In this document: positions 1 through 18,270 of the stretch, piece after piece | Layout of the letters: every line of letters begins with the position of its first letter | Numbering within the stretch: position 1 is the first letter of the stretch | Virus record (IMG/VR): IMGVR_UViG_3300044846_002887 | Coordinates: 1 to 22,731 of that record | Origin: a virus | Length of the DNA: 22,731 nucleotides | Direction: 5' to 3' (one strand) | Translations under genes and position numbers: made by a program | The notes under the pieces: model-generated | The model's input: the letters and a program-made list of their open reading frames with translations, nothing else | Told to the model about the DNA's origin: nothing | Database searches by the model: none

Positions 1-1992
1 ATCACTGAAGTTGTATGGGCATCAACGTTGTTTAATAATGGTGACGTGTCAAATTTATCAACAGAAAACGGTTGTTTTACTGTTGTCGGTCCAACTGGTG
101 CAACTGTTACAATTGACAGTTTTTTGAATTTTGATCCACAACCAGGGTGTGACCCTTGTATTGAATGTAATGGTATTAACTACCAATACGAAACTTGTTA
201 CCCTGTTTCTGGTTTTTCATATGATGGTTTAATTGATTTTGGTGGTGCAAGTGAAACTCCTTTTGATGTTGAGTATAATCCTGACACCCAACACATCTAT
301 ACAACAACTCAATCAACAAGAATGATTGTTGTTGACCCATCAACAAACTCTGTTTACACCCAATACACATTTCCTGGTGGAGGTTATGGTGATGTTTTAT
401 ATTATGATACAAATACGATGTATCTTACAAGCACTAACCAATCTAGTATTCGTAAATTAGATACATCAATTGATATTTCTGGGACAACAACACCATATAG
501 TATTGGCACAACGTCGTTTCGTATGACAAAAGATTTACCTAATAACAGATTATTTATTACTTGCAGTGACTATAGTGTTAAAATATTTAACACACTAACA
601 AATACGGTAACAGGGTCAATCTCAACAGCAAGTGGTTATTATGAAGAATTTATATCATATGATCCAATTAATGATGAGGTTTATACAACTGCAAGTGGTG
701 GGTATAGTGTTGAGGTTTATAATCCAAATACACTATCACACGTTACATCAATACCTGTGAATGGTTCTTATGATATTGCATATGAACCTAATAGTGGAAA
801 TATGTATGTTACTTGTAGTGGATATAATCAAGTAAAAGTTATTGATACAACAACAAAAACTGTGACAAATACAATAGCAACACCTCAATCTCCAGGTAAT
901 ATCAGATATAATAATTATGATGGATATATATATGTTGCACTACCAAATGGTTTATTAAAAATAAATCCGTTAACAAATGGTATTGTTGCAACAAATGATA
1001 CGGTAACACCATCTACAAATTCTATTTATGGTTTTGATTTTTACGATGTAAATAATAATATTTACCTTGGATTTAACGATAATGACGGTGGTAATGATGG
1101 GTTAAGGTATTTTTCTCAAACTGGTGGCTCAACTTTGAGTGGATATATAAAATCATACCAATATTTACAAAATGGTTCTGTTTTTTATAATCCAGCAATT
1201 GATGAATGTTGTACAATTTTAGGTACCTCTTCATCATATTATGATACATTATATAGTGTTGAAACTTTTAGTGGTAATGACGATGACTGTGCCACTTGTT
1301 ACTTTAATGGGCAACCAAATATACAGATATGGAATGCTTCAGCATGCACAAACTCAAATACATATAGTTCTTTTTATGTTACAACGGATAATACAGTAGC
1401 ACAGGGTGATATTGTAAAATTAATGTGGGGTTCAAATGAATGGATTTGTGCTGGGTTAATAAATACTGTTAATTCTAATAGTGGTTATTACACATATTAT
1501 AATACACAAAAAAATGGACTTGGTGACACATTAAAATATGATAGTTGTGAAAATTGTAATTCACAAGGACTAATTGGTGTTACATTAGTTAATTGTAATA
1601 CAGGGGTTGAGTCGTTTGTGAGTATAACACTTGATAATTACTTATCTATTTATTCTTTTGATAGGTTTGCTTTACCTAATTATAGCGTGAGTGATAAATT
1701 TGGTAATTGTTATCAAATATCAAATTTATGTCCAATACCTTTAGAAGAAGAAGGATTTACACCTGTTGAGTTTTACTTTAATTGTATTATTTGTTCGGAA
1801 GACAATCCAGGTGTTGTTCCGAGAAGTGCAAATACTGAATCAACAGTTTGTGAAATTTGTTGTGACTGTGGTGCCACTGGTTCAACTATAAATATTATAA
1901 CACCACCTCATCCTGTTTGGACTGATGGTTACGGGACACCAGTCACGCAATTAAATATGATTGTAATTGGTGGAAATGGATTAAATAGTTAA
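1..1992 (+). CDS. Beta-propeller phage structural protein (5' end outside window)
   Basis: The frame is open from the first base and ends at TAA 1990-1992, so the gene begins upstream; the TTG at 28 is just an internal codon. About 660 residues are visible. Roughly residues 75-370 (counted from the TTG) carry repeated blocks of the YVTN/NHL beta-propeller type: a short strand with small and aromatic residues, then phrases such as NPNT, DTTTKTV, NPLTNG and IDP..N. The C-terminal third is rich in Cys (CC, CxxC, CxC pairs) and Asn/Tyr/Thr and ends in a glycine-rich strand. The composition suits an extracellular or virion surface protein, for example a tail fibre, baseplate or decoration protein. 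The next gene starts 10 nt downstream on the same strand. The function is inferred from the fold and context only; the propeller call is fairly secure, the virion role less so. Confidence 0.7.
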   Translation: MTEVVWASTLFNNGDVSNLSTENGCFTVVGPTGATVTIDSFLNFDPQPGCDPCIECNGINYQYETCYPVSGFSYDGLIDFGGASETPFDVEYNPDTQHIYTTTQSTRMIVVDPSTNSVYTQYTFPGGGYGDVLYYDTNTMYLTSTNQSSIRKLDTSIDISGTTTPYSIGTTSFRMTKDLPNNRLFITCSDYSVKIFNTLTNTVTGSISTASGYYEEFISYDPINDEVYTTASGGYSVEVYNPNTLSHVTSIPVNGSYDIAYEPNSGNMYVTCSGYNQVKVIDTTTKTVTNTIATPQSPGNIRYNNYDGYIYVALPNGLLKINPLTNGIVATNDTVTPSTNSIYGFDFYDVNNNIYLGFNDNDGGNDGLRYFSQTGGSTLSGYIKSYQYLQNGSVFYNPAIDECCTILGTSSSYYDTLYSVETFSGNDDDCATCYFNGQPNIQIWNASACTNSNTYSSFYVTTDNTVAQGDIVKLMWGSNEWICAGLINTVNSNSGYYTYYNTQKNGLGDTLKYDSCENCNSQGLIGVTLVNCNTGVESFVSITLDNYLSIYSFDRFALPNYSVSDKFGNCYQISNLCPIPLEEEGFTPVEFYFNCIICSEDNPGVVPRSANTESTVCEICCDCGATGSTINIITPPHPVWTDGYGTPVTQLNMIVIGGNGLNS

Positions 1993-2968: not shown

Positions 2969-3604
2969 TTATTGTTCATTAAGAACTCTTCTAACAATTC
3001 TCATCAAATCAGTTTCAGTTAAAGTTACAATATTTTTTTCTGTGTTTTCATTTTTTGGTTTGTAGGATGTCATTACAGGTTTTTGTCCTTTACCTGTTTG
3101 TGTGTCTTTCTTTTCTGCTCTTCTTTTTTGTTGACAGGCGGCTTTTTTTTGTGAATCAGACATTTTACCTGCAACTCCTGCGGCTCTACATTTAGGATAT
3201 GAACCTTTATCCGCGTCACTTCTTCCACAAGGTGGATGTTTTCCGTTAACTTTTCGGCAAATATCCACCCAAGGACCTTTTGGTTGTTTTGAACCTTTAG
3301 GTTTTTTCTTTGTTCCAAACCATACGGCTAAATCTTCACTGATTGCGTGAACATCGTGTTCATCAACATCATACGTACCGTCAGCATTTTTCTCCCAAAC
3401 ACCCACAGTTTTTTTAATATTATTTTTCAAAGTTTTTTGTTTTTTGTTGTGGTTGAATTCAGTATCAACAAATTTATAAAAAGGACCTAATTCACTTTCT
3501 TTCCATTTTTTTAAACCTATTTCAACAGGTCCATTATATAAACCCGCGGTAACAGAAGTATTTGCTTCCTTTAATATTTTCTTTATAATATCGTCAATTA
3601 TCAT
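2969..3604 (-). CDS. Cys/Lys-rich putative internal protein with targeting-like motifs at both ends
   Basis: 211 residues if read from the ATG at 3604. The frame also has an ATG at 3622, but the promoter-like octamer at 3611-3618 lies between the two, so 3604 is preferred; AAAGGTA precedes it. The N-terminus MIIDDIIKKILKE|ANTSV is a basic amphipathic helix ending in LKE. The C-terminus ends LTETDLMRIVRRVLNEQ, a similar helix ending in LNE. The middle has WFGTKKKPKGSK, WVDICRK, HPPCGRSDADKGSYPKCRAA, a helix (KMSDSQKKAACQQKRRAEKK) and a basic tail. This 'W.D.CR...PCGR...YPKCR' module occurs in phage and large-virus proteins (I recall it as DUF5872; name from memory). It is probably a zinc- or nucleic-acid-binding packaged protein, by inference. 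Confidence 0.65.
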   Translation of the reverse strand: MIIDDIIKKILKEANTSVTAGLYNGPVEIGLKKWKESELGPFYKFVDTEFNHNKKQKTLKNNIKKTVGVWEKNADGTYDVDEHDVHAISEDLAVWFGTKKKPKGSKQPKGPWVDICRKVNGKHPPCGRSDADKGSYPKCRAAGVAGKMSDSQKKAACQQKRRAEKKDTQTGKGQKPVMTSYKPKNENTEKNIVTLTETDLMRIVRRVLNEQ

Positions 3605-3610
3605 TACCTT

Positions 3611-3618
3611 TATAAATA
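3611..3618. promoter_or_regulatory. TATAAATA/TATTTATA octamer between divergent genes
   Basis: The octamer lies 6 nt upstream of the minus-strand ATG at 3604, reading TATTTATA in the sense direction. It is 9 nt upstream of the plus-strand ATG at 3628, reading TATAAATA. The same octamer precedes most minus-strand units here. TATAAATA is the T4 late-promoter consensus, so for the plus-strand gene it is in the T4 orientation. Which gene it serves cannot be decided from sequence alone. Confidence 0.45.
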
Positions 3619-3627
3619 TCATAGAAT

Positions 3628-3843
3628 ATGGAAAAAGGAAATGAAGCGTTTGGTAATATTTTTGGGACTATTGAACTTTTGTCTGAAGAACATTTAGATA
3701 CCATATTAGATTCTATGAATAAAGAACACTCAATGTTTTATTTAATTGAGGGTGTTAAATCCGCCTACCAAAGAGGTGCGTTTACTTTAGGTGAAGTAGA
3801 AGTTTTATCTAAAGCGATTAGAGTTCTTTCTAGAACGGAGTAA
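3628..3843 (+). CDS. Small hypothetical phage protein (71 aa)
   Basis: 71 residues from ATG 3628, predicted largely helical (FGTIELLSEEHLDTILDSMN, then MFYLIEGVKSAYQRGAFTLG, then VEVLSKAIRVLSR). Its amphipathic pattern and normal phage codon use support a real gene. It is divergent from the 3604 gene with only 23 nt between the starts. Its last 39 nt overlap the end of the convergent membrane-protein gene. I recall similar 'Y.IE.VK.AYQRGA' proteins in Bacteroidota phages, with no known function. The tail-to-tail overlap is unusual but modest. Confidence 0.5.
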   Translation: MEKGNEAFGNIFGTIELLSEEHLDTILDSMNKEHSMFYLIEGVKSAYQRGAFTLGEVEVLSKAIRVLSRTE

Positions 3844-4287
3844 ACTTTTATATGTAATTAAAAATAAGTGATACACACACATCACAACAATTCCCCACAC
3901 CTCCATCCAAAATATCCCCCAAAAAAAACCAACAACCAAACTAATTAAGTATAGATACAAAAAATACTTAAATCTTTTTGTCATATATAATGGATATATC
4001 ACTGAAACAAAAAAACAAATTGCAATAATGTCGTGTGCAATTGGATATGTTACTAATGAAAAGGATGTTAATAATAATAAACAAAGTGCAGGTAGTTCCC
4101 ACCTTTTCATTGAAAATAAATAATAACTTGTAAGGGCATTTGTTGCAATAAATAAGGGTTCTAATGGTGTTCCCCAAACTAACGACAGGGCTTCTATATC
4201 ACCCAATGTCCTATAAACAATGTAAGGTTGTAGTAATGCTAAAATAATTACAAACAACCTTACAAAAAAATCATATTTTTTTAACAT
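3805..4287 (-). CDS. Five-helix membrane protein coupled to a secreted-protein gene
   Basis: 160 residues. Five hydrophobic segments are visible: about residues 8-27 (FVRLFVIILALLQPYIVYR), 45-60, 66-80 (LPALCLLLLTSFSLVTYPIA), 85-103 and 110-145 (the last may be two passes: LYLISLVVGFFWGIFWMEVW, then VVMCVYHLFLITY). The C-terminus is basic (RSRKNSNRFR), suggesting a cytoplasmic tail. The ATG follows the stop of the 665-residue secreted protein directly (TAAATG), so translation is probably coupled. No holin, transporter or exclusion-protein signature is recognised. The coupling suggests it acts with the secreted protein at the host envelope, but that is inference. It overlaps the end of the opposite-strand gene by 39 nt. 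Confidence 0.65.
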   Translation of the reverse strand: MLKKYDFFVRLFVIILALLQPYIVYRTLGDIEALSLVWGTPLEPLFIATNALTSYYLFSMKRWELPALCLLLLTSFSLVTYPIAHDIIAICFFVSVIYPLYMTKRFKYFLYLYLISLVVGFFWGIFWMEVWGIVVMCVYHLFLITYKSLLRSRKNSNRFR

Positions 4288-6285
4288 TTACCTTATTACT
4301 TTTCTCATAGACCCATCGTCATATACCTCCATATAAATACCTGTTGCGTTCATATCTTTTACTTCTTGTCCACTCATATTGATGATTTTGACAAGGATTC
4401 TATTATTTAATGTATTATCAATTGAAATTATATTAAATGTTTCTGAATTACCATCAAAATCAGTTTGAGACAATCTGTAGTAATTAACCTTTCCTCTTTC
4501 GTAATCTGAATCCAAGTAAGAATAGGATAGTACTTCTTGTGAGTTTCCTGCCCCATTGATTGTTGCGACATTAATCCAGTTTTCACCATCAGCTGTTCTT
4601 TCAAGTGTGAAGTAGTTGTTATTTTGTTCAGATGCGGTATTCCAGTAAAGTAAGTTATTTACACCATTTTCTTTCCCGTTGAATTCCATAAGTTCTATCG
4701 GTAGTGATGTTGTTAGTGTGATTGTTACATCCCTACAATTTGCATCCTCCACACAATTCCCATTCACATTTACGTGAACATAATACGTATTGTTTGTTGG
4801 TGCTGTAAAGCTATATGGATGAGAACCAAATCCTACAACAGTTCCTGTTGGTGACCCTTCTGTTACTGTAATCCAATCACTACTAATAGATGACAATACG
4901 GTATATGTGTTTCCTTGTACACCTGTGTTCCATTGACTATACTCATCAGTAAATTGTCCAAAACCTGATACACAAGTTGTAGAAACTGAACCAACTGTTG
5001 ATGTTGGCATATTATTTATTGCGTAAGGTGTGGCATTAAGACAAGGTCCTGGTGGTGGAGGTGGTGGTGGAGGTGAACACAAGAATTGTAATGTAAATGA
5101 CGATGTTGTACCAAATCCGTGTATTAATATAAAATATGTTACACCAGGTGTTGATGTCCAAGAATATGATGCAGATGTACCAGCACAAGACGGACCGTTA
5201 TCGTCAATACCACCCACACAAGTTGGGGACGCACAGGTTCCTTGAAAAACTGATATCTTACTGTCCCAAGCCGTGGCACAGAGAGATGCGGTCATTACAT
5301 CTCCCGTGCCCACAACTTTATACCACACACCTCCCGTAGTTTGTGTGGTCCCACAAGAACCTCCTTCACCTGTACCTGATAAAGTAGAACCTACAGTAGT
5401 TCCCGCCAAAAGAGAACCACAGGTGATTGTTGTTGCATTACATATTAAATCGTTAGATGGTGCAACTATTGGACACCCTAAATTAAATGTTACATTATAT
5501 GAACCTGTTGTTTCAGGGTCTAAAAGGATATAATATGTAACACCTGCAGTAAATGTCATTGGTGTTATCGCATTATAATTTCCTGCAGATGATATGTCGT
5601 CAACACAATTCCATCCCGTATTTCCACATCCTCCCGATGCAGGTTTCCAAAAGAAATCAATAAAACCACCTGTAATTGTTGTAACATTAAGTGAATAAGT
5701 TCCTGTTGTTGTTGGTGTGAATTGGAATATTCTTTCTTGTCCTGGTGTGGAAAATCCACAAGATGATGGATTCCATCCTGCCCCACCACCTGACATTGTA
5801 GTTGATACGTTTGTTCCACAACTGCTTATTGTGGTTATAGATGAACAAGGATTATAAACAGGGGCACAAGTTACCCTATAACTTAATATTGTTGTGGCAC
5901 TTAAATTAGCACAACTATAATTAGTTACTAAAATAGAATAAGTTCCATTTGCAGGACAAATCCAAGTAAGTGATGCTTTTGTTCCTGTACAAAACGGACC
6001 ATTATCGTCGTTCTGAGCTAATACGGTTCCTCCTGTTGCAGTTGAATATAATCTCAGATATGTGTCATTTGTGTTTACACTATTACAGGTAGAGAAATCG
6101 TAAGTACATCCAGCCGTTGCTGTGAATCTCCAATACCTTTTTGCTGATGCGGCGTTTGATACATTTTGAAATGTTCCTGTAGGTGTAATAACACCCATAT
6201 TCACCAACGCAGTTGCAGAACAGAATTGGGAAAGTAAATTAAAATTAATTAATAACGTAAATAGAAATAATGCAAGTTTTTTCAT
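4288..6285 (-). CDS. Large secreted protein with T9SS-cargo-like C-terminus
   Basis: 665 residues. Residues 1-20 are a clear Sec signal peptide (MKKLALFLFTLLINFNLLSQ). Next come at least three Cys-rich beta-sandwich units: ~22-142, ~147-272 and ~275-405, each with Cys pairs and phrases such as NDDNGPFC or IDDNGPSC, resembling bacterial PPC-like secreted domains. A polyproline linker leads to a fourth unit. Residues 528-627 (LPIELMEFNG, WNTASEQNNNYF, VNYYRLSQTDFDGNSE) are the module commonly found just before the sorting signal of Flavobacteria T9SS cargo. The last ~38 residues (VKIINMSGQEVKDM, then GIYMEVYDDGSMRKVIR) resemble the end of the type A sorting domain, though the usual YPNP half is missing. 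Expected location is the cell surface or medium of the infected host. It is followed immediately by the membrane-protein gene. The function is unknown; adhesin, receptor masking and superinfection exclusion are all possible. Confidence 0.75.
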   Translation of the reverse strand: MKKLALFLFTLLINFNLLSQFCSATALVNMGVITPTGTFQNVSNAASAKRYWRFTATAGCTYDFSTCNSVNTNDTYLRLYSTATGGTVLAQNDDNGPFCTGTKASLTWICPANGTYSILVTNYSCANLSATTILSYRVTCAPVYNPCSSITTISSCGTNVSTTMSGGGAGWNPSSCGFSTPGQERIFQFTPTTTGTYSLNVTTITGGFIDFFWKPASGGCGNTGWNCVDDISSAGNYNAITPMTFTAGVTYYILLDPETTGSYNVTFNLGCPIVAPSNDLICNATTITCGSLLAGTTVGSTLSGTGEGGSCGTTQTTGGVWYKVVGTGDVMTASLCATAWDSKISVFQGTCASPTCVGGIDDNGPSCAGTSASYSWTSTPGVTYFILIHGFGTTSSFTLQFLCSPPPPPPPPGPCLNATPYAINNMPTSTVGSVSTTCVSGFGQFTDEYSQWNTGVQGNTYTVLSSISSDWITVTEGSPTGTVVGFGSHPYSFTAPTNNTYYVHVNVNGNCVEDANCRDVTITLTTSLPIELMEFNGKENGVNNLLYWNTASEQNNNYFTLERTADGENWINVATINGAGNSQEVLSYSYLDSDYERGKVNYYRLSQTDFDGNSETFNIISIDNTLNNRILVKIINMSGQEVKDMNATGIYMEVYDDGSMRKVIR
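4332..4339 (-). promoter_or_regulatory. Possible intragenic octamer upstream of the membrane-protein gene
   Basis: TATTTATA in the minus-strand sense, inside the last codons of the 665-residue protein (encoding GIYME), 44 nt before the ATG at 4287. It matches the octamer seen upstream of other minus-strand units and could give separate late expression of the membrane protein. It is also simply a codon-driven match within a GIY phrase, so confidence is low. Confidence 0.2.
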
Positions 6286-6378
6286 ATGACCTTTAATTTT
6301 GTGGGTTTAAAACTAAAGTCACACTTGAAGAACCTTGTGGAGGAACCCCCAACTTCCTTGGGCAGGTCGTGTCTTTAT
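6286..6378 (-). other. GC-rich 5' leader of the 665-residue secreted protein
   Basis: About 93 nt lie between the candidate promoter octamer and the ATG at 6285. The segment is markedly richer in G and C than other intergenic DNA here, with runs of G and C (around 6328-6368) that can pair weakly (AGGAA with TTCCT, 8-nt loop). It ends with AAAGGTCATATG, an SD-like AAAGG five to six bases from the start. The other secreted gene has nearly the same start context. No known riboswitch is recognised. Confidence 0.35.
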
Positions 6379-6386
6379 TATAAATA
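6379..6386 (-). promoter_or_regulatory. Late-promoter-like octamer for the 665-residue secreted protein
   Basis: TATTTATA in the sense (minus) direction, 93 nt before the ATG at 6285. It lies downstream of a terminator that closes the preceding unit, which supports a separate transcript. It is the same octamer found at the portal, terminase, scaffold and capsid genes, tying this bacterial-looking gene to the phage's own regulation. Confidence 0.5.
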
Positions 6387-6421
6387 CAATGATATAAGTA
6401 AAAATACGTAGTGGAAATACC

Positions 6422-6450
6422 AAAAAAGGGGTGAATTATCATACACCCCC
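6422..6450 (-). terminator. Intrinsic terminator after the 318-residue secreted protein
   Basis: On the minus strand, GGGGTG (6444-6449) pairs with CACCCC (6428-6433) across a 10-nt loop and is followed by six T (6422-6427). It lies 28 nt beyond the stop of the gene at 6478. Shape and position are those of a rho-independent terminator. Confidence 0.8.
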
Positions 6451-6477
6451 TCTTGTTTAATATTTATCAACTATGAA

Positions 6478-7434
6478 TTAAAATTGGTAAGTTTTAACAA
6501 ACTCACCATTTTTGTAATAGATGATAACAACCCCTTTATAGTTTTCATCAACTTCTTTACTTGATAAATCAACGATTCTTTCAATGTCTTTCTGTACTCT
6601 ATTATCAATTGCAATAATTGGGTAAACTTTATATTCACCATCAAAATCATATTGAATTAATCTATAATAATTGATTGTGTTTTCTACTTTCATATCAAGT
6701 AAATCATAATCAATAATTTCTTGGGAATTACCTGAACCCATCAGATTTCCAACTATTGATGAATTATCAAAATCTCCCGTTGTTGATTTTTCCACAATAA
6801 AATGAGATGAATTGTGTTCTGACGCTGTTTGCCATTTTAATAAATTAAAACCATCTTGTTTTATACCATCAAAATAAGTTAGTTCAACAGGAAGTGACGT
6901 TGGCGCATACAGATAAACATCGTCAATTCTAAATTGTGCTAATGAAGAATTTTGTCTGAATCTTAATCGTAGATTTGTTGTGATTGGAATTGTCCCTGTT
7001 GGTGAAATTGTTCTCCATACCGCAGTTCCCGTACCTGTGGGTCTTGTATAAGTAAGTGGGGTAAAGTTTGAACCATCAGAACTAACCTCAATTATTAATT
7101 CGTTACTTGACGCTATTGTACTTTTATGGTGACTTAATATCAAATATACTTCACTATACGTACTTGTGTTTATACCTGAAATGGTAAAAACTCGTGATGG
7201 ATTATTTGTAAAAAATACATTTCCACCCCCACTTGCACCTGAATTTGTGGATGGTGTTGTGTTTCTAACATCCACATTTCCCGCAAAAGAAATGGGACTT
7301 GTACTTTGCCAACCAGTGTATGAACTAATAACTGTGGTAGTTGTGGGAGAACCAAAGTTTTCAGAAAGAATGGTTGATTGTGATAACGTAAATTGTGATA
7401 ATAATACCACAAAAAATAGTAAGAAATTTTTCAT
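6478..7434 (-). CDS. Secreted protein, paralogue of the 665-residue protein in its C-terminal module
   Basis: 318 residues with an N-terminal signal peptide (MKNFLLFFVVLLSQFTLSQS). Residues ~20-175 look like a jelly-roll or carbohydrate-binding-like beta sandwich (ILSENFGSP near the start, RFRQNSSLAQFRIDDVYLYA at the end), a fold common in Flavobacteria exoproteins. The last 138 residues begin LPVELTYFDG and align with the last 138 residues of the neighbouring 665-residue protein: WQTASEHNSSHF, GSGNSQEIIDYDLLD, NYYRLIQYDFDGEYK, then IVDLSSKEV and GVVIIYYKNGEFVKTYQF. This places it among putative T9SS cargo, although the terminal sorting motif is divergent. Translation starts after AAAAGGTCATAA, nearly the same context as its neighbour. 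It is bounded downstream by a strong terminator. Ligand and role are unknown. Confidence 0.75.
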   Translation of the reverse strand: MKNFLLFFVVLLSQFTLSQSTILSENFGSPTTTTVISSYTGWQSTSPISFAGNVDVRNTTPSTNSGASGGGNVFFTNNPSRVFTISGINTSTYSEVYLILSHHKSTIASSNELIIEVSSDGSNFTPLTYTRPTGTGTAVWRTISPTGTIPITTNLRLRFRQNSSLAQFRIDDVYLYAPTSLPVELTYFDGIKQDGFNLLKWQTASEHNSSHFIVEKSTTGDFDNSSIVGNLMGSGNSQEIIDYDLLDMKVENTINYYRLIQYDFDGEYKVYPIIAIDNRVQKDIERIVDLSSKEVDENYKGVVIIYYKNGEFVKTYQF

Positions 7435-7491: not shown

Positions 7492-8175
7492 TTAATAAAC
7501 TATCTTATTGGATTTTCTAATGTTTTCATCACCCCATAATGGTTGGAGGTTTTCTAACGCCCAACATTTATTAAACTCTTTATCACCTATTTCTTTAATA
7601 TCAAACGATGAAATTGGGATGATGTGGTCTACGTGCCATTGTCCATAATTATCCCAAGTAATAACTCCTGTGAATTTGCTTTCTAAATGTTCTATTAATT
7701 GTTCGGGAGTATATTTTAGAATATCAAAATAGTGTCCGTTTTTTTGAATGTTTCTTTCTTTTAATACTTGATAAATTGCGGTTCTGAAATTGTTGATTAA
7801 CTTATAGAGGGGATCGTTTGCTTTACGGGTTTTTTCGTAATTCCTTTTGGTTTCTCTCCATTTATCAATATTTTCTTCTCTCCATTTTTTTTGATATTCT
7901 TTAAGGTGTTCTTTTTTATCTTGAGACCATATTTTATGATAGTTAAGTTTCTTTTCTTTATGTTTATGGTAATTTCTTTTATCTGAAACAGATTTACCAC
8001 CCTTATATTTCATTCCAGATGGTCCTATCTTTATACCGCTTTCTTTTAATACCCGTAATACAATATGTTTTTTAATGTTTAGTTTTTCGGAAATAGATGG
8101 TGAACCCAACATTTCATCGGTATAAAGCCTGATTATTTCTTTTATAGTGTTATCATCTAAAATAATTTTTTTCAT
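7492..8175 (-). CDS. HNH endonuclease (free-standing, possibly homing)
   Basis: 227 residues. Residues ~1-50 look like a helix-turn-helix (NTIKEIIRLYTDEMLGSPSI, then SEKLNIKKHIVLRVLKESGI), followed by a long basic linker rich in Lys, Asn, Tyr and Trp. The nuclease core is near the C-terminus: WHVDHIIPISSF supplies the paired histidines, and CWALENLQPLWGDENIRKSN supplies the Asn and the final metal-site region. Such genes insert next to conserved phage genes; this one lies just downstream of the major capsid gene, separated from it by a terminator, and has its own octamer 4 nt before the ATG. It may promote its own spread or affect related phages. The enzyme class is secure; the homing role is inferred from position. 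Confidence 0.85.
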   Translation of the reverse strand: MKKIILDDNTIKEIIRLYTDEMLGSPSISEKLNIKKHIVLRVLKESGIKIGPSGMKYKGGKSVSDKRNYHKHKEKKLNYHKIWSQDKKEHLKEYQKKWREENIDKWRETKRNYEKTRKANDPLYKLINNFRTAIYQVLKERNIQKNGHYFDILKYTPEQLIEHLESKFTGVITWDNYGQWHVDHIIPISSFDIKEIGDKEFNKCWALENLQPLWGDENIRKSNKIVY

Positions 8176-8218: not shown

Positions 8219-8251
8219 AAAAAAAAAGAGTTAGATTTCTCTAACTCTTTT
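8219..8251 (-). terminator. Intrinsic terminator after the major capsid gene
   Basis: A perfect 12-bp inverted repeat (AAAAGAGTTAGA at 8224-8235 and TCTAACTCTTTT at 8240-8251) with a 4-nt loop is followed on the minus strand by a T-run (8219-8227). It lies 24 nt past the capsid stop. The A/T flanks would also permit function in the other direction. Confidence 0.85.
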
Positions 8252-8274
8252 CTTATTCTATTTTAAGATTTTGA

Positions 8275-10137
8275 TTATCTCAATTCTCTCAAATCAAATG
8301 TACGAACACCATCAACAGTAATACGCGCATAAAATCTGTTGTTAACCATTTTTTTCGCGTAACGTGTCATTATACCTTTGATAGGTGTAAAGTTGAACGG
8401 ATTGTACATTGTAGGTGTTAATTGTAGAGGTACATACGGTGCGTAGATGTAACCTGTGTCAAGAAGTGAAGTACCTTTATGACCCAACAATACTTGGTTT
8501 GGTGGGAAGTAAGGATCACGATACACTTGGTAACGTCCTGCAAGAGTACCAACTCTTTCAATACCCATGTTATACTGATCTTGCTCAGGAGATGCGTTAG
8601 ATACGTGGAAGTATTCTAAATCATCAAAGATTGCTGAAACTTCAGAAGATACAACGATCCAGTTTGCACCACCTCTCAAAGTAGATTTGTGGATTTGTGC
8701 AGACAATTGGTTAATCGCAGTAATCAACGTTTGATTCCAATCTTTTTGAGTGTAAGATGTAGTTTGTGCAATTCTTCTCCATCCGTTGTAATCCCAACGT
8801 AGGTTCCAAGCCGCACCTTTTCTCAAGTCACGAAGAATTTCACGATCGATTTCAGCAGCAACTTGCTCTGACAATAGGGCTGTCAATTCAGCCTCAGCAT
8901 CAATGTTGTGGAATGCCGCAACATCTTGTGCTAATTCAGGAGACCATTGTGCTCTAAGTTTTCTTTCAGACACAGAAACTGTTACAGATTCCAAGTCAAA
9001 AGAAACCTCACCGATTTTTTCTTCAAACTCAAGTTCTTCATATCTTCTCCAAACAGCAGTAAATGAAGTTCCTGAAGTGATAGCAGAAATAGATGAACCT
9101 GTGTAACCATCAAGTGAATCATCACCACATGAAGCACAAGCAGGACAAGACAAATCTACTTCAAGGAAAATACAACCATTAGCATCACAAATATCGTAGA
9201 ATGAACCACCGTTACCATCTACAGGCCATGTAGTTGGTGTTTGTTGTCCATACTGAACAATACCTTTACCATATTTTTGAGTTACAACTCTAAACAATAG
9301 TGGAGTTGTTGTTGTAGGTAGAGGACAAACGTTATTTGAACCAAACCCAAGACCTGTATTAGGAAGAACTTTCAAATCAGACAAGAAAGTCTCACTATCA
9401 ATTTCATTTCCATCAGGACCTACTAATTTACCAGCACCAGGGATATTGTTCCATCCACAAAGTTTGATAAGAACTTTACGTGTGTTACCAACATATGCGT
9501 TAGTCAAAGAACCTGTAGCGTCAACTAAATCACCATTACTCCATACAACAACTTGTGCTGGTGCAGTAATTGCAGACCAACGTCCTTTAGAGTAATCAAA
9601 CAATCCTGGAGGATCAAGTCCTGCTTCAGCACCTTCGTAGAACAAGTCATAAAGGTTTTTAGCGAAAGGATAGTTAGGCGATGCACTTGAATTAGGATAA
9701 CCTTGTCCAGGGTTATTCAATGCATTATTATTAGCCGCAGCTTCAGGAGATCCAATTGGTGGATAGTGTTCTGCAGAAGTTGTTCCATATCCGTCTTGAA
9801 ATCCTTGGATACGAGGTACAAAGTAGAACAATTTACCGATAGGTAAGTTCATTGCTTGTACTGATACGATATCGTTAGCCAACAATTTAGAGAAAACTCT
9901 TCTTACGATAGGGAAAACAACAGTTTCAAAAGCTCCGTTTGAACCTTCAGAAGTTGCTTCGTTAATCAAGAAAGAAGCTTGGTTTTCATACAACTGTGCT
10001 ACGTTTTCTTTTAGATGTCCTTTAAGTCCATCAAGGAACCCTAATCTGTCCCATTTGTTAATTGTGTCTTCTTTGATAACTTTTAGGTGCTTAAGCCCAA
10101 TGTTACCTACAAGACCTGATTCTAATAATGCTCCCAT
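8275..10137 (-). CDS. Major capsid protein, T4 gp23 family
   Basis: 620 residues, longer than T4 gp23 (about 520). The N-terminus ends in ENQASFLINE|ATSEG. Like T4 gp23, where cleavage follows FLTE at residue 65, this gives a predicted prohead-protease cut after Glu60. Residues 79-108 (RRVFSKLLANDIVSVQAMNL, then PIGKLFYF) and ~393-433 (KLRAQWSPELAQDVAAFHNI, then DAEAELTALLSEQVAAEIDR) match gp23 closely; further on are YQVYRDPYFPPNQVLLGHKG and GYIYAPYVPLQLTP. The family has the HK97 fold and forms the hexamers of the head. An insertion around residues 225-350 carries a Cys cluster (C317, C322, C331, C334, C337) absent from T4. The gene follows the scaffold gene and is closed by a terminator. 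No T4 gp24-like vertex gene follows it. Confidence 0.95.
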   Translation of the reverse strand: MGALLESGLVGNIGLKHLKVIKEDTINKWDRLGFLDGLKGHLKENVAQLYENQASFLINEATSEGSNGAFETVVFPIVRRVFSKLLANDIVSVQAMNLPIGKLFYFVPRIQGFQDGYGTTSAEHYPPIGSPEAAANNNALNNPGQGYPNSSASPNYPFAKNLYDLFYEGAEAGLDPPGLFDYSKGRWSAITAPAQVVVWSNGDLVDATGSLTNAYVGNTRKVLIKLCGWNNIPGAGKLVGPDGNEIDSETFLSDLKVLPNTGLGFGSNNVCPLPTTTTPLLFRVVTQKYGKGIVQYGQQTPTTWPVDGNGGSFYDICDANGCIFLEVDLSCPACASCGDDSLDGYTGSSISAITSGTSFTAVWRRYEELEFEEKIGEVSFDLESVTVSVSERKLRAQWSPELAQDVAAFHNIDAEAELTALLSEQVAAEIDREILRDLRKGAAWNLRWDYNGWRRIAQTTSYTQKDWNQTLITAINQLSAQIHKSTLRGGANWIVVSSEVSAIFDDLEYFHVSNASPEQDQYNMGIERVGTLAGRYQVYRDPYFPPNQVLLGHKGTSLLDTGYIYAPYVPLQLTPTMYNPFNFTPIKGIMTRYAKKMVNNRFYARITVDGVRTFDLRELR

Positions 10138-16494: not shown

Positions 16495-18270
16495 TTATCT
16501 TTTCATACCCCCGAATAACCATCCGTATTTTATATATTCATCCTTTGATGGACCTGAATTCATTCTTTGTCTTTCAGAAAACATATGAGTATTTGGCATT
16601 ACAGGATCAAAATGAACTTGTTTACCAACAGAATCATTATTACTTACAGTCCACGATTCAATCATTATTTTAGTTTTTTCAACAACTTTTTCAAGTTTTT
16701 GAAATGACGACTCCCCAACGTATATTGCCATTGCTATTGACATTATTAAATCATCATGTTGACCTTTTTGGTGATCGGGTCTACCATTAACATATATGAA
16801 AGTATTCATTTCATTATATAAACGAACACTTTTTACTTTAAACTTATGTCTAACATATTCTTCAAAAGCTGCTATTATTTGAACTCTTTTATTATTAAAG
16901 TTTATTCCTGGTATTTTATCTTGTGCCTTTGGATTATAACTCCAAATATTTGTTGAGTCCACGCCATCAATGTATAAATTCTTATATCCTAATTCTTGCA
17001 TTTTTCTAACTGTTGTAATACCCATACCACCAGTTATATCCACAACACAAAAAGCATTATACATTAACCCCCATTTATATGCGATTTCCGCTAAAGAATC
17101 AGGAGGTATTTTACCAACGTATTCAAAAACCTGCTCTCTTTCGTCAAAATCAACTATTTGGATTGTTGAGAAATCTTCACTATCACCACGAGATACGTCA
17201 ACACCCATAATATATTTGTGTCCCTCAATAGGTTCTTTCCATAACCACAATGAATTACCCATCATTTTATTTGGTGCATCCTCCAGTGTGTTTTGTTTGA
17301 TATAATCAAGTTGTTTACTATCAAATACGTTATCCCCTGAACCTAAAAATTCACAATTTAACTCCTGATTTATTTTTCTTTTGTCATACTTAAGTTTTTT
17401 AACCATTTTCTCATACCAAGTAGAACAAGGTTTGTAACCCTTTGAAAATAAATCACTTAATTCTTTATAATCTCTTTCGTAAGGATCTATGTGTGCAAAT
17501 GAAATATTTTTAGAAGTATCCTTTTCGTCTTTATTTAACAAATAATCAATTAAATCGTCCGTTGGAACCAAAAACAAATCTTTTGCATATCTTGGATCTC
17601 TATACCAAAACATTTCAGAGATTCTGAAATTATTCATCCCCTTTGTTGCTTGGTTATATATCTCGTAATAAATTGGATCATACCCGTTTGGTGTTGATAC
17701 AACGATTACTTTACCACCCGTAGATAGTGACGCCATACAAGCAGCCCAAAAGTCACTATCAGCCTCAATAAACGCCGCCTCATCAAATACAAGTATTGTG
17801 GGGGTAAATCCACGTAATGCATCTTTTGATGTTGCAACTGCTTTTACCTCTGAACCATTTGTTAATTTATAATGTTTTTGTGAGTTTTTATCAACAGAAA
17901 ACCCTGCACCAACCCATTTGGGCCATTGTTCAACAAACGCTCTAATCTTATTTGCCATCTCCATTGATGTATCAAGTTTGTTGGCAATAATTAGAATTTT
18001 TTCGGGACGTTCTTTTTTTGCAAAAACTAACCTTTTTGATACCCAAGCAGCAGTTACAGTTGATACACCCGCCTGTCTATATTTTAATGCGATATTTTCT
18101 TCGTAATCCTCATAATCTTTAAGTAGTGAAACCTGATCTGGAAACAATTCTAATGGAACATATTTTGATACTGTATTATCATATGTTTGTAGGTATGTGC
18201 GAAGAGCATATGGTGTATCCCTCATACATTTAACATATTCAAGCATCAACTGTTCTTTTGTCAAACTCAT
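16495..18270 (-). CDS. Terminase large subunit, T4 gp17 family
   Basis: 591 residues, typical for the family. The ATPase half shows Walker A YRQAGVST (64-71, with Val where most P-loops have Lys), Walker B ILVFDEA (159-165; D163, catalytic E164) and the coupling motif STPNG (192-196). The RNase H-like nuclease half shows the acidic residues D358 (GVDVSRGDSEDF), D411 (VVDITGG) and D506/D507 (GQHDDLIMS). The enzyme cuts concatemeric DNA and pumps it through the portal. A TATTTATA octamer precedes it by 13 nt, on the far side of a terminator closing the upstream operon. No small terminase subunit is visible in the window. Confidence 0.96.
   Translation of the reverse strand: MSLTKEQLMLEYVKCMRDTPYALRTYLQTYDNTVSKYVPLELFPDQVSLLKDYEDYEENIALKYRQAGVSTVTAAWVSKRLVFAKKERPEKILIIANKLDTSMEMANKIRAFVEQWPKWVGAGFSVDKNSQKHYKLTNGSEVKAVATSKDALRGFTPTILVFDEAAFIEADSDFWAACMASLSTGGKVIVVSTPNGYDPIYYEIYNQATKGMNNFRISEMFWYRDPRYAKDLFLVPTDDLIDYLLNKDEKDTSKNISFAHIDPYERDYKELSDLFSKGYKPCSTWYEKMVKKLKYDKRKINQELNCEFLGSGDNVFDSKQLDYIKQNTLEDAPNKMMGNSLWLWKEPIEGHKYIMGVDVSRGDSEDFSTIQIVDFDEREQVFEYVGKIPPDSLAEIAYKWGLMYNAFCVVDITGGMGITTVRKMQELGYKNLYIDGVDSTNIWSYNPKAQDKIPGINFNNKRVQIIAAFEEYVRHKFKVKSVRLYNEMNTFIYVNGRPDHQKGQHDDLIMSIAMAIYVGESSFQKLEKVVEKTKIMIESWTVSNNDSVGKQVHFDPVMPNTHMFSERQRMNSGPSKDEYIKYGWLFGGMKR

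Follow-up and report, generated by a model that had tools for sequence, protein, structure and literature searches.

Accessory phage genes whose products are targeted to the host envelope include morons and receptor-masking lipoproteins such as Llp of phage T5. Phage T4, in turn, decorates its capsid with the Ig-like protein Hoc, which is encoded close to gp23 and carries neither a signal peptide nor a sorting tail. Cargo for the type IX secretion system (T9SS) of the host was reported in Cryophage, where three variable genes carry type A T9SS domains, a situation called a unique occurrence, and the authors propose that the phage hijacks the T9SS of its host (Bellas et al. 2020, PMC7468147). 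The principle of phage-encoded T9SS cargo has therefore been known since that report; we found no further case besides Cryophage in the literature, with subscription papers and preprints lying outside our search. Here, we describe a pair of genes for putative T9SS cargo, 318 aa (cargo 1) and 665 aa (cargo 2) in length, on a 22.7-kb viral contig from a T4-like phage (IMG/VR record IMGVR_UViG_3300044846_002887, positions 1 to 22,731; hereafter ‘the window’). We put the probability at about three in four that the two proteins are exported via Sec, recognised by the host T9SS through a compact C-terminal tail, and displayed on or released from the cell surface late in infection.

The window lineage resembles Cryophage in that genes with T9SS-type cargo vary between phage variants. 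Whereas the Cryophage cargo consists of endoglucanase and GH39 enzymes and a PA14 protein with recognised sorting domains, the genes described here belong to a T4-like lineage, in which they occupy a fixed slot next to gp23, and their products end in an unrecognised short tail common to one host order. As with morons and T5 Llp, we are dealing with accessory, separately transcribed genes of the structural region whose products are probably envelope-targeted, yet they carry a T9SS-type tail instead of a lipid anchor, and their passenger is exchangeable. The likeness to T4 Hoc lies in an Ig-like protein gene near gp23, the difference in the signal-peptide-like N-terminus and the tail. The fixed slot beside gp23, the unrecognised tail common to one host order, the swapping of passengers and the late-promoter signature appear to be new. 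Hardly any phage has been documented to exploit an outer-membrane export machine of its host, and in this lineage such exploitation would be an organised, recurrent feature.

A sequence-only reading of the window had proposed that both proteins are secreted and share a homologous C-terminal module. Both open reading frames (ORFs) were present on the minus strand where that reading had placed them (Table 1), both start with signal-peptide-like N-termini (MKKLALFLFTLLINFNLLSQ before F..., and MKNFLLFFVVLLSQFTLSQ before S...), and the modules, beginning with LPIEL at residue 528 of cargo 2 and LPVEL at residue 181 of cargo 1, proved homologous (40% identity over ~140 aa). The C-terminal end it had quoted for both, GQEV...YDDGSMRKV, holds for the 665-aa protein only, the tail of the 318-aa protein being SKEV...GVVIIYYKNGEFVKTYQF. 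Chance does not account for the module resemblance, because the module profile recovers full-length relatives at E values of 1e-42 to 1e-66 and a tail-only profile matched 106 forward ORFs as compared to 0 reversed ones. A simple hydrophobicity/charge criterion for signal peptides was passed by 73 of 78 unique module relatives and by 59 of 1034 other phage ORFs (~6%).

Profiles from Pfam, NCBIfam and PHROGs returned no function-bearing match for either cargo protein, and a sequence search of solved structures yielded nothing meaningful. AlphaFold modelled the 318-aa protein as a CBM/MAM-type jelly roll followed by an FN3-like module, to which the tail contributes three strands with high confidence; the predicted structure of the 665-aa protein was of low confidence (pLDDT 64.5). 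When the 318-aa model was used in a PDB fold search, CBM/FN3-like two-domain enzymes and MAM-Ig were retrieved at TM scores of 0.2–0.3, informative for the general fold only, and no sorting-domain structure was among the matches. Its viral structural neighbours were proteins of uncultured phages, one of them annotated ‘Secretion system C-terminal sorting domain’.

Judged by gene order, the cargo pair occupies a slot of variable content, bordered by the T4-like capsid gene on one side and by conserved phage genes on the other. Among 58 capsid-anchored loci in which the slot was closed on both sides, 16 held module cargo, 13 were empty and 17 carried an HNH/endonuclease VII-like gene directly behind gp23, and a module-anchored scan, independent of the capsid, placed 52 of 78 loci in the same slot. 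The survey of related phages that the sequence-only reading had called for recovered relatives of the pair in the sister-phage loci L001, L002 and L004–L006, whose contigs measure up to 229 kb and have the slot flanked by phage genes on either side. Directly 3′ of gp23, these loci encode an S8 subtilisin (PF00082) with SprB repeats (PF13573), then an SprB-repeat protein and, in some, a second one; next comes a homologue of the 318-aa protein and, in contigs that are long enough, also one of the 665-aa protein. The S8 proteins keep the catalytic-type motifs DANx, HGT and GTSFASP, and they and the first SprB proteins exceed the sorting-domain cut-offs (29–41 bits for TIGR04183, cut-off 23; 39–51 bits for PF18962, cut-off 27). 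Canonical sorting domains of this kind were found in only 6 of 50 phage records, five of the 6 being of the S8/SprB type. With SprB repeats and S8 domains joined to sorting domains, the sister-phage slots recall the SprB gliding adhesins and T9SS-secreted S8 proteases of Bacteroidota, but the phage proteins are small (198–683 aa) and are absent from the window, which has an HNH/endonuclease VII-type gene where its sisters have S8 and SprB cargo. In locus L010, whose capsid protein is 89% identical to that of the window, the same endonuclease is followed by an S8 gene. As possible homing elements, the endonuclease-like genes may make the slot accessible to exchange. S8 proteases in the slots of some other phages (L206:4973-6427, L213:4167-5621, L205:4403-5833) end in another compact tail (...VIDINGRTTNLDNTLPGYYFVVNNGIITKKIYKN), which had no TIGR04183 match.

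Closer inspection of the tail revealed an arrangement reminiscent of the sorting-domain families TIGR04183 and PF18962: it is C-terminal, stands behind a signal peptide and beta-sandwich passengers, and displays DLxGxxV, GxY and a K-rich end in this order. The difference lies in its size, ~38 aa as opposed to ~70–75, in the lack of the YPNP-containing first half, both in line with the sequence-only reading, and in scores that are below or absent from the cut-offs. When aligned to 79 bacterial sorting domains, the phage tail is collinear, through these motifs, with their C-terminal half; the alignment scored 16.4, and the best of 200 controls with shuffled columns 9.0. A bridging case is the phage SprB-repeat protein L239, which matches TIGR04183 at positions 23–71 only and below the cut-off. 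We therefore treat the tail as a putative compact sorting domain that would work like the TIGR04183 family, yet stands formally outside it.

Bacterial proteins with the LPVEL module mostly continue into a full YPNP-type sorting domain, but in several proteins of Flavobacteriales the short tail stands at the end in its place. A 39-position tail model matched the ends of secreted proteins in 74 of 120 genomes from the family of a Fluviicola genome and in 155 of 299 genomes of its order, as compared to 1 of 247 genomes in a phylum-wide draw, where the sole match was the query genome. A model built from phage tails only (71 sequences) likewise matched bacterial C-termini in the fetched loci. As these included proteins devoid of the LPVEL module (L250 and L255), the tail is a separable unit. 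The candidate host order counts as T9SS-positive, SprA being present in 292 of its 299 genomes, and each of the 20 tail-bearing genomes tested (20/20) encoded at least 63 canonical sorting domains. That host proteins also end in this tail weakens the suggestion of a decoy signal in the phage. The tail may serve as a host-prediction marker for uncultured phages, and since it is missed by Pfam and NCBIfam, such cargo is likely under-annotated in phages and Flavobacteriales alike.

One tail is combined with many passengers. All 111 phage module proteins terminate 0–4 aa after the module profile, with the ~38-aa tail at the extreme C-terminus, and at least 18 passenger architectures of about 200–1080 aa carry module and tail. 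The cargo proteins of L008 and L009, two phages with very similar capsids, share 87% identity in their C-terminal 275 aa and 100% in the final 35 residues, while their first ~520 residues are unrelated; this amounts to a swap of passengers on a constant stem. Several short-tail phage cargoes further contain GEVED and GBD_T9SS_assoc domains, the Pfam name of the latter referring to T9SS association. Phage modules group apart from bacterial ones (8 changes versus 36 when shuffled). Matches to the C-terminal module also occur in uncultured huge phages of 460–640 kb from INPHARED (LR745206, LR756502, LR756504 and LR756500), two of which additionally match the SprB-repeat protein.

Promoter motifs were counted in the upstream regions of structural genes in L001–L086 and L166–L243. 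TATTTAT preceded 80% of cargo genes (14% in shuffles), 65% of portal genes and 85% of right-flank genes, and the Bacteroidota-type TAnnTTTG preceded 79% of the genes for a different flank protein, P150 (13% in shuffles). In this lineage of phages, TATTTAT has the look of a late promoter motif, with P150 seemingly representing a class with the host-type TAnnTTTG. As TATTTAT is common to cargo and virion genes, the cargo would be expressed late. In the window, it stands before the 665-aa gene (6380–6386). Terminator-like hairpins lie between the two cargo genes and, as a second one, after gp23. With its variable presence at a fixed site, candidate promoter of its own and terminator-like sites, the pair has the apparent make-up of a moron or accessory cassette.

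Taken together, we propose the two genes to be interchangeable cargo cassettes in a variable slot directly 3′ of the T4-like capsid gene, which would be transcribed late and mostly from their own TATTTAT-type promoters. Signal peptides would take the products out of the cytoplasm via Sec. In the periplasm, the host T9SS would recognise the ~38-residue tail, which would correspond to the final strands of a type A sorting domain, and export the products to the cell surface or the medium. The passengers would be adhesive or sugar-binding beta-sandwiches and, in sister phages, also subtilisin and SprB-repeat proteins, which close phages would exchange while stem and tail stay constant. Most likely, they may serve to alter or cover the exterior of the infected cell and its debris at about the time of lysis. 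Receptors might, for instance, be masked or cleaved to prevent the loss of progeny, or competing phages might be shut out. Adhesive or sugar-binding passengers, occasional proteases, rapid exchange and late timing would all fit a change of the surface around lysis better than an early block; the late-type promoters in particular make a role near release a better fit than early exclusion. The sequences themselves show the slot, N-termini of signal-peptide type, the invariant tail, the exchange of passengers, host proteins with this tail and canonical T9SS cargo in the slot; that the genes are expressed late, that the T9SS recognises the short tail and whatever the proteins do in biological terms is what we infer.

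Several results weigh against this proposal. Neither window protein matched TIGR04183, PF18962 or the type B sorting profile TIGR04131 of NCBIfam at E values up to 1, so the profile search put forward by the sequence-only reading came out negative, and no short-tail protein tested passed a curated sorting-domain cut-off. The hhalign probability of the tail versus the canonical domain was just 4–12%. The tail model searched in bacterial genomes contained 5 bacterial rows, the near-universal presence of SprA in the order does not discriminate, and the likely host, a tail-bearing member of the Flavobacteriales, is deduced from the distribution of the tail only. Finally, the 318-aa gene of the window lacks TATTTAT and has a TAnnTTTG-like site. 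The assignment as T9SS cargo is well supported by way of relatives, through the over-threshold domains in the slot and the tail shared with secreted Flavobacteriales proteins, but not by the proteins' own profile test.

The missing match to curated sorting profiles would suit a different fate, in which Sec export takes the proteins no further than the periplasm or outer membrane. The tail would then cap the FN3-like module structurally without acting as a sorting signal, and the function would be an envelope role such as lysis. Late-type promoters are compatible with an envelope or lysis role, and AlphaFold confidently places the three tail strands directly after the FN3-like module. However, the tail also ends bacterial proteins that have no such module, canonical T9SS cargo resides in the same slot, and the tail motifs follow the order of the C-terminal half of sorting domains; we consider a periplasmic or outer-membrane endpoint unlikely, if the most serious of the alternatives.

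Considerably less probable is that the products are virion decorations or fibres, Hoc-like and encoded beside gp23, with signal-like N-termini that are incidental. Besides this position, the late-type promoter common to virion genes and the Ig/FN3-like folds, with structural matches to phage tail and FN3 proteins, speak for such a role. It accords poorly with signal-peptide-like N-termini in 73 of 78 relatives as opposed to 6% of other phage ORFs, with a slot that is empty (13 of 58 closed slots) or filled with unrelated genes in many relatives and holds cargo in 16, and with a C-terminal tag common to host secreted proteins. None of the relatives we recovered is a known virion protein, contrary to the outcome that would have refuted the sequence-only reading, and in the annotated genome of immuto, a cultured relative, no secreted T9SS-type protein is named behind the capsid gene.

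Barely credible, lastly, is an origin as host fragments misjoined to phage contigs or as passive, functionless host genes: in its favour are the similarity of the modules to host proteins and their gain and loss among phages, but phage modules cluster separately from bacterial ones, the cargo has the phage promoter motif, the ORFs are intact across divergent relatives, and the chimera variant was rejected as the slot layout, flanked by phage genes on either side, recurs in dozens of independent contigs that measure up to 229 kb.

Returning to export by the T9SS as the preferred explanation, we tentatively extend it, at slightly less than even odds, to the tail being a new minimal class of T9SS sorting signal that is used by Flavobacteriales and was captured by a sizeable group of T4-like phages as a universal plug, with swapped passengers displayed late and possibly with the help of a 160-aa membrane partner. 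Two questions become testable with this system: how little of a sorting domain the T9SS needs, and how a phage benefits from altering the surface of its host on leaving.

The putative partner is a multi-span membrane protein of unassigned family encoded next to cargo 2. Its relatives occur in 9 of the 16 cargo slots and in 0 of the other closed slots (9/9 with cargo; hypergeometric 1e-6), and once beside cargo outside the slot (L230). The link tracks phage ancestry on the capsid tree, with 2 supported and 5 total independent pairs; because the carriers cluster on that tree, it is a lead, not proof.

Cargo 2 is further preceded by a conserved structured 5′ leader of ~105 nt with two stems, supported by three compensatory pairs over 7 sequences. 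A model of this leader returned 11 matches in 69 loci, all directly upstream of a PPC-type cargo gene or its would-be start. One matching locus, L180, has no recognised capsid slot, which suggests that leader and gene move together. The same model found no match in 120 candidate host genomes, a search run without a positive control, and an Rfam search of the window was likewise without a match.

Table 1 Features of the cargo locus and its surroundings in the window (coordinates in nt of the 22,731-nt stretch).
Feature	Position	Strand	Remarks
Conserved 217-aa phage protein, right slot flank	2969..3622	-	
Conserved 71-aa phage protein, right slot flank	3628..3843	+	
160-aa multi-span membrane protein, family unassigned	3805..4287	-	Start codon abuts cargo 2 stop (TAAATG)
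Cargo 2, 665 aa: signal peptide, PPC-like beta-sandwich repeats, LPIEL module, short tail	4288..6285	-	Relatives in L004-L006, L169, L171-L173
C-terminal module and tail of cargo 2 (residues 526-665)	4291..4710	-	
Short tail of cargo 2 (last 38 aa)	4291..4404	-	Sorting role putative
Conserved structured 5′ leader of cargo 2	6285..6387	-	Ends at start codon; contains TATTTAT
Terminator-like hairpin between cargo genes, after the 318-aa gene	6424..6450	-	GGGGGTG...CACCCCTTTTTT; similar in L005, L169, L171-L173
Cargo 1, 318 aa: signal peptide, CBM/MAM-like jelly roll, FN3-like LPVEL module, short tail	6478..7434	-	
C-terminal module and tail of cargo 1 (residues 179-318)	6481..6900	-	
Short tail of cargo 1 (last 38 aa)	6481..6594	-	Sorting role putative; three predicted strands
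HNH/endonuclease VII-like gene, capsid-proximal slot end	7492..8175	-	phrog_1035, E 2e-16
Terminator-like site after capsid gene, left slot border	8221..8254	-	
Major capsid protein gp23, left flank of slot	8275..10137	-	PF07068, E 6e-73
Terminase	16495-18270		T4-like order with portal gp20, prohead protease gp21 and major capsid gp23

As to the identity of the phage, profile matches from Pfam and PHROGs showed the T4 order of gp17, gp20, gp21 and gp23 homologues to be kept in the window. Its capsid protein is ~41–45% identical, over the matched segments, to those of the closest named relatives, which are an uncultured huge phage, a Microcystis phage and the immuto group of cultured Flavobacterium phages. 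Outside the slot, a 654-aa protein (28-1992, plus strand) contains a YncE-like beta-propeller region. Its end (HPVWTDGYGTPVTQLNMIVIGGNGLNS) is common to the ends of neighbouring proteins in relatives, for instance in L004 and L086, and looks like a structural C-terminus.

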